A stretch of 64,000 nucleotides of DNA from Natronococcus sp. CG52 (GTDB lineage Archaea > Halobacteriota > Halobacteria > Halobacteriales > Natrialbaceae). Below are positions 54,943 to 55,396 of the stretch, piece by piece (the first letter of the stretch is position 1; each line of letters begins with the position of its first letter). The DNA lies in NCBI RefSeq assembly GCF_023913515.1, contig NZ_CP099391.1, positions 186,001 to 250,000 on the forward strand. The letters are read 5' to 3'. The notes beneath the pieces were generated by a model. That model saw only the letters and a program-made list of their open reading frames with translations, had not been told where the DNA came from and did not search any database. The translations under genes and the position numbers were made by a program.

Positions 54943-55396
54943 TCGTCTGTTACGGTACGCGGTCGTTGTGGGTCAGACGGACCCAAACGCGGATTTCGCC
55001 GAAAACGGTGCTCTTCTCCGGATCGTAAGTCCTCCGTCGCAACTGGTGACGACGCGGGGAAGTACACCACGAAAGCCCCTGACGCGCTCGACTCGCGCGT
55101 CTCGCTGTGCGCCTCGGCTCGCGTCGTCGTGCTTCGCCGAACGCGTCAGCCCCTTTCATTCCCGCCCGGATCGGCTGGCCGGTCGAGCCACCGCGGGTGG
55201 GAATGAAAGGGGCTGCCGCCGTCCGGGAAGACGGGCGACGCAAGCACGTGACCGGTAGGGAACGCGCGCAGCGAGCCCATTGACCGGACGACGGCAGGGG
55301 CTTTCGTGGTGTTCTCGGCGATTCCGCTTGCCAAACGATTACTCTCTTTCACCGAGTGCCCCACAGCCTATTGTCGGCGAGCGAGTACCCTCGAGC
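54943..55396. other. Intergenic region filled by a cloverleaf palindromic element
   Basis: No gene is called. Over half of the 454 bp is occupied by the nested inverted repeats listed separately; the 3' flank (55316-55396) carries the pcm promoter region. Confidence 0.6.
55065..55311. repeat. Nested inverted-repeat element forming a four-way (cloverleaf) junction
   Basis: Closing stem: CACCACGAAAGCCCCTG (55065-55081) with CAGGGGCTTTCGTGGTG (55295-55311), 17 of 17. Inside it three stems follow without spacers: A, CTGACGCG (55079-55086) with CGCGTCAG (55142-55149); B, CAGCCCCTTTCATTCCC (55147-55163) with GGGAATGAAAGGGGCTG (55199-55215), 17 of 17 and extended by CCCG/CGGG after one G-T pair; C, 55214-55226 with 55284-55296, 12 of 13. 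Adjacent stems share two or three bases (CTG/CAG). Confidence 0.85.

Follow-up and report, generated by a model that had tools for sequence, protein, structure and literature searches.

The 247-bp stretch at 55065-55311 of the window, which is the whole 64,000-nucleotide piece of the Natronococcus sp. CG52 genome analysed here (NZ_CP099391.1, positions 186,001 to 250,000), belongs, as an old copy, to a family of non-coding DNA elements dispersed through the haloarchaea. With a probability of about 0.62, we read it as an old and probably immobile copy of a MITE/REPIN-like family of haloarchaeal mobile DNA, the fold of which is maintained at the DNA level. In the mechanism that we propose, an IS6-family transposase would act in trans on copies with outer ends, and the stems would be kept matched at the DNA level because movement requires folding and/or because the halves of each inverted repeat exchange sequence; such exchange would also turn round single arms and entire elements. 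After its insertion the window copy would have been deprived of its outer ends, and it probably has no essential role for the neighbouring genes.

Structure and distribution of the cloverleaf repeat

The four stems described by the sequence-only reading were all present in the window copy, closed by the perfect 17-bp stem (Table 1). Arm B agreed with the earlier description and the eight pairs of arm A were found as two runs around a mismatch, while the stem of arm C, which had been given as 12 of 13 pairs, came close to this at 10 of 11. The stems abut without spacers and neighbours share CTG/CAG, as had been noted, and the location just before two isoaspartyl methyltransferase (PCMT) genes was also correct; on the far side of the 454-bp spacer lies a gene for a CPxCG zinc-finger protein (PF19769). 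In addition, a 52-nt inverted repeat (55117-55168 with 55194-55245, 79%) relates the sequences of the two repeat units in this copy.

Table 1. Parts of the window copy and the spacer in which it lies.
Feature	Positions	Strand	Description
Closing stem, left arm (CACCACGAAAGCCCCTG)	55065..55081	+	terminal inverted repeat of the core; pairs perfectly over 17 bp with 55295-55311
Arm A, 65 nt	55082..55146	.	stem 55082-55090 with 55138-55146, one mismatch (5 + 3 bp)
Arm B, 69 nt	55147..55215	.	17-bp perfect stem CAGCCCCTTTCATTCCC/GGGAATGAAAGGGGCTG, 22 paired in the fold
Arm C, 79 nt	55216..55294	.	stem 55216-55226 with 55284-55294, 10/11 bp
Closing stem, right arm (CAGGGGCTTTCGTGGTG)	55295..55311	+	17-bp perfect pairing with the left arm
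Unit 1, the basic repeat unit, GAAAGCCCCTG-arm A-CAGCCCCTTTC	55071..55157	+	single-unit forms elsewhere in haloarchaeal families
Unit 2, reversed unit 1, GAAAGGGGCTG-arm C-CAGGGGCTTTC	55205..55305	-	window sequence; 52-nt inverted repeat
Inter-unit spacer, loop and upper stem of B	55158..55204	.	orientation varies between same-spacer copies
454-bp spacer, CPxCG zinc-finger gene to first PCMT gene	54943..55396	.	element-free in 7/8 congeners

A chance origin of the four stems had been judged improbable, and the folding calculations bear this out: as DNA the element folds at -95.8 kcal/mol, compared with -62.5 ± 3.5 for 200 dinucleotide shuffles (z -9.6), none of which folds as well, and as RNA the z value is -10.5. 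The minimum-energy fold is a longer rod in which the inner parts of arms A and C are paired, rather than the cloverleaf, which with all four stems enforced has -88.2 kcal/mol as DNA, 7.6 above the rod. Since the core is a pair of inverted hairpin units plus a spacer hairpin, both the rod and the four-way cloverleaf are open to a single strand. The sharing of CTG/CAG, from which a junction capable of branch migration had been proposed, is a Natrialbaceae feature and is absent in most copies parsed from other families, so that branch migration does not hold for the family in general.

Contrary to what the earlier description had implied, the element does not stand alone. The search of haloarchaeal genomes proposed there as a check returned multiple copies in several genera and families: the genome of the window holds several divergent copies, relatives within Natronococcus hold further ones, with N. 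pandeyae (G004) the richest, and copy number differs strongly among close relatives. Within Natrialbaceae, matches were found in 59/125 genomes and 20/29 genera (E 1e-18), and in a class-wide sample 95/194 genomes matched at 1e-12. The 61 copies parsed from Natrialbaceae (some places are counted twice) have a common layout in which the closing stem is followed by A, B and C; A mostly measures 62-85 nt, B 68-70 nt in nearly all copies and C mostly 72-92 nt; certain arms are longer and reduced forms without A or C were also seen. Copies in Halopiger, Haloterrigena, Natronobiforma, Salinadaptatus and a Natrialbaceae MAG carry the 17-mer of the window's closing stem at each end. The repeat unit measures ~90-100 bp, and the full core consists of two units head to head, inverted and with a spacer hairpin between them. 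In other families the unit often occurs singly (GAAAGCCCCTG-arm-CAGCCCCTTTC), and full cloverleaves were found there as well, with arm stems of ~12 bp and different junction bases. Halopiger (G029) has ~20 unit matches. Phage records gave no match to the element, and we found no description of this family in the open-access papers searched.

A second, longer repeat, of ~450 bp, contains one unit of the cloverleaf family and a conserved stretch with CCTCCCCAGCCGATTCGCTC, and was observed in relatives of Natronococcus (L073, L078-L081, L083, L084, L086, L088, L091, L093). In several genomes (L089, L090, L092) units also directly follow the stop codon of a gene that is small, ends GIAYLEGEL or similar and resembles winged-helix regulators.

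Outer ends, target duplications and candidate mobilisers

The guess that the element is mobile was right for the family, as indicated by its dispersed copies, 8-bp target duplications and one empty site. The argument given for it, sharp boundaries, did not hold: young copies reach ~45 bp past the closing stem on each side, where they end in IS6-type, GGCCGTGTTCAAA-like repeats, and a termination at the closing stem was rejected for them. Target duplications, scored over the 8 bp beside the ends with one base of slack allowed, were at least 7/8 in 9/14 copies with both outer ends recognisable and in 1/182 mismatched pairs, and five copies (L058, L062, L067, L071, L187) had duplications of 8/8. 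Furthermore, the search of relatives for empty sites succeeded for L058, whose site is empty in both G008 and the window's own genome; the L067 site gave a match on one side only. The window copy itself shows no recognisable IS6-like outer ends and no target duplication at the edges of its stem, so the duplications that had been suggested as a check occur in young copies and not here.

A resident IS6-family element in the window's genome (L296; 696 bp, with a transposase ORF and an 8/8 duplication) has termini, GGTCGTGTTTAG/GGCGGTGTTTAG, that resemble the ends of the young copies, and end sequence and duplication length are the basis of the IS6 link. At Pfam level no IS6 transposase was found in Halopiger (G029), despite a copy with a perfect duplication; IS6 as mobiliser is not firm because this genome has elements and a perfect duplication with no IS6 match today. 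The family resembles IS6-derived MITEs in being non-coding, ~175-380 bp with its outer ends, with IS6-like terminal repeats and, in young copies, an 8-bp target duplication and an empty site. It differs from them in that a minority of copies keep such ends and in that the conserved part is the internal cloverleaf, common to single-unit forms without IS6-like ends. Only in young copies were all the MITE features found: short length, lack of coding capacity, terminal inverted repeats, target duplication, empty site and the ends of a resident element.

A likeness to the REPINs of Pseudomonas and others (PMC3116915) is seen in a palindromic unit that is doubled in inverted orientation around a spacer, in the extragenic and dispersed location, in the compensatory changes and in a single strand that folds as rod or clover, both of which have been proposed for REPINs (PMC3116915). 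The cloverleaf repeat differs in being archaeal, in having a unit of ~90-100 bp compared with 20-40 for REP, in its 8-bp target duplications and in the arms and whole elements that are found reversed. A strict REPIN, moved by a RAYT or Y1-type single-strand transposase, would explain the doublet of one palindromic unit with variable spacer, its compensatory changes and its two folds, but we consider it very improbable. Y1_Tnp (PF01797) had no match in 5/8 element-bearing genomes (G000, G029, G049, G193, G262), including that of the window, and where it was present (G004, G134, G226) none of the five Y1 loci adjoins a unit; RAYT was thus not supported as mobiliser. In addition, the unit is far above REP length and the 8-bp target duplications point to a DDE transposase. 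As for haloarchaeal repeats, SMR-A, SMR-B and PATE of Haloquadratum (PMC3119063) are likewise short, non-coding and mobile. The terminal repeats of SMRs are unrelated to known transposons (PMC3119063) and, by description, SMRs are highly uniform, measure ~80-110 bp and lack target duplications, and PATEs have neither terminal inverted repeats nor target duplication, whereas the cloverleaf family has both.

Covariation and orientation of the stems

Compensatory changes, named in the sequence-only reading as a sign of a selected structure, were found across the stems. Among 107 distinct arms, 88.1% of the pairs at 10 positions were Watson-Crick, compared with 21-27% when the partner was slid. 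According to partner shuffling between copies, which ignores the relatedness of copies and was applied to stems with three or four pair types at most positions, the arm stems of Natrialbaceae pair at 10.05/14 with their own partner versus 6.19 ± 0.18 with shuffled ones, and those of the other-family set, where most stems are 12 bp, at 11.5/14 versus 6.6 ± 0.4; in the latter set the outer closing stem also covaries (5.2/7 versus 3.7 ± 0.4). In arm B, ATT/AAT and AGT/ACT variants covary, and the stem of arm A is variable yet paired in most copies. Arms A and C were observed to be less alike within one full-length element (mean score 16) than between elements (23), which would fit an avoidance of long perfect palindromes.

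Over all stems, G.T and A.C mismatches were about equal (47 and 61, beside 2,654 Watson-Crick pairs), which gives no sign of a structured RNA kept on one strand. When counted in unit orientation, A.C exceeded G.T (55 versus 18), which is not an independent count since the arms are related, and which speaks against the DNA-exchange model in that its simple version does not predict it. A structured RNA, cis-acting or independent, with a cloverleaf kept because the transcript must fold, would agree with the strong covariation of all stems, with the low RNA fold energy and with the position of copies, often 50-90 bp downstream of a stop codon; moreover, a bidirectional terminator would likewise disfavour G.U on both strands. 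This explanation, offered as one option by the earlier reading, is not favoured and seems unlikely to us: G.U pairs are not in excess on one strand when the whole element is counted, a given spacer can hold complete elements and single arms in both orientations, no Rfam family was matched at its gathering threshold (best match 29.8 bits versus a threshold of 100), the window copy is missing in 7/8 congeners, and convergent gene pairs are not preferred by the copies (3, versus 7 divergent and 23 codirectional). The sub-threshold Rfam matches, mostly to microRNA models, were rejected as evidence of an RNA family, and a terminator between convergent genes was rejected for lack of enrichment in the same counts.

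In three same-spacer pairs elsewhere the element appears, from alignment, to have been turned round between unchanged flanks. With the flanks kept in register and the element aligned directly or reversed, identity was 93% reversed versus 72% direct for L212/L213, 83% versus 66% for L031/L309, and 82% versus 67% for L218/L235, where it rests on one arm; same-orientation controls gave 97% (L142/L228) and 95% (L389/L392). The summed arm scores of the first two pairs (130 and 106) are above the maximum of 105.5 in 602 unrelated pairs (mean 60, sd 17). In addition, arm B and single arms are flipped between certain same-spacer copies. In deep comparisons within its spacer the window copy also looks reversed relative to L142/L228 (78-79% versus 67-68%), but the arm scores are inside the spread of unrelated pairs and the comparison was therefore not used as proof of inversion. 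As an alternative to inversion, the reversed pairs may have arisen by excision followed by re-insertion in the opposite orientation.

In this regard, haloarchaea are described as polyploid with efficient gene conversion, and chloroplast DNA as undergoing small inversions linked to hairpins (Kelchner and Wendel 1996, cited in PMC7393888 and PMC3123225); exchange between inverted-repeat halves is therefore plausible in haloarchaea by analogy. Segments between inverted-repeat halves flip recurrently in the non-coding DNA of a multi-copy genome in chloroplasts (PMC7393888, PMC3123225) and, as it appears, here, with single hairpins in the former and nested hairpins in a mobile element in the latter. 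No description of nested flipping inside a mobile repeat was found in the open-access papers searched. We suggest, tentatively, that the nested inverted repeats could keep flipping and matching each other, which would make the element a self-maintaining four-way DNA fold, mobilised and possibly used as a structural site by the host.

Age of the window copy and persistence at shared spacers

That the window copy is old is indicated by outer ends no longer recognisable and by the presence of the element or its remnants in this spacer in other genera. The zinc-finger/PCMT spacer is occupied in the window's genome and G004, and the element or remnants were found there in G048, G064, Halopiger (G029), G065, G049, G027, G020 and G063. 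Among the eight congeners, N. pandeyae alone has it, in a single-unit form, and the other seven spacers are empty. The window copy is as near to a non-orthologous copy (83%) as to its same-spacer relatives (78-79%), and may thus also represent an independent insertion or conversion in this spacer. In G020 the remnant in this spacer (L128) is split by ~110 bp between GAAAGCCCC and CAGTCCCGCCCG and appears to be interrupted by another insertion.

The spacer between the M24 peptidase and LLM oxidoreductase genes contains full copies, shortened copies and footprints in several genera. Flanks such as TAATGGTTGGCGAACCAGCTA were rejected as parts of the element, being host sequence of this spacer; they are common to copies because those copies occupy this one spacer. 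Footprints of ~25-30 bp (CACCACGA...TCGTGGTG) were observed in G006 (L307), G005 (L308) and G049 (L324) at places occupied by the full element in relatives, and would fit a deletion between short CTTTC or GAAAG repeats.

Copies in the same spacer mostly have higher identity in the element than in the flanks, for example 95% versus 56/60% (background 48%). This could be due to selection, to conversion between copies or to both, and the persistence of elements while flanks randomise could reflect purifying selection for a host function. Together with the presence of copies in the same spacers across genera and a fold that haloarchaeal families have in common despite their differing stem sequences, such data would fit a domesticated mobile DNA, in which the cruciform or four-way junction is a putative site for a junction enzyme, an option raised by the sequence-only reading too, or for an architectural protein. 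However, loss, internal deletion and footprints are frequent at the same spacers (G005, G006, G049, G072) and copy number varies strongly between close relatives, and we regard domestication as improbable.

If our preferred reading, that of a mobile family with a fold maintained at the DNA level, is true, the cloverleaf repeat would be to haloarchaea what REPINs are to their hosts, but with another mobiliser and a larger fold, whose four stems would have been retained as several haloarchaeal families diverged. In practice, masking these repeats in haloarchaeal genome assembly or in searches for structured RNAs would be worth doing. Furthermore, the maintenance of DNA hairpins could be studied in nature from the variable arm stems, and reversed copies would make short inverted-repeat recombination in polyploid archaea testable.
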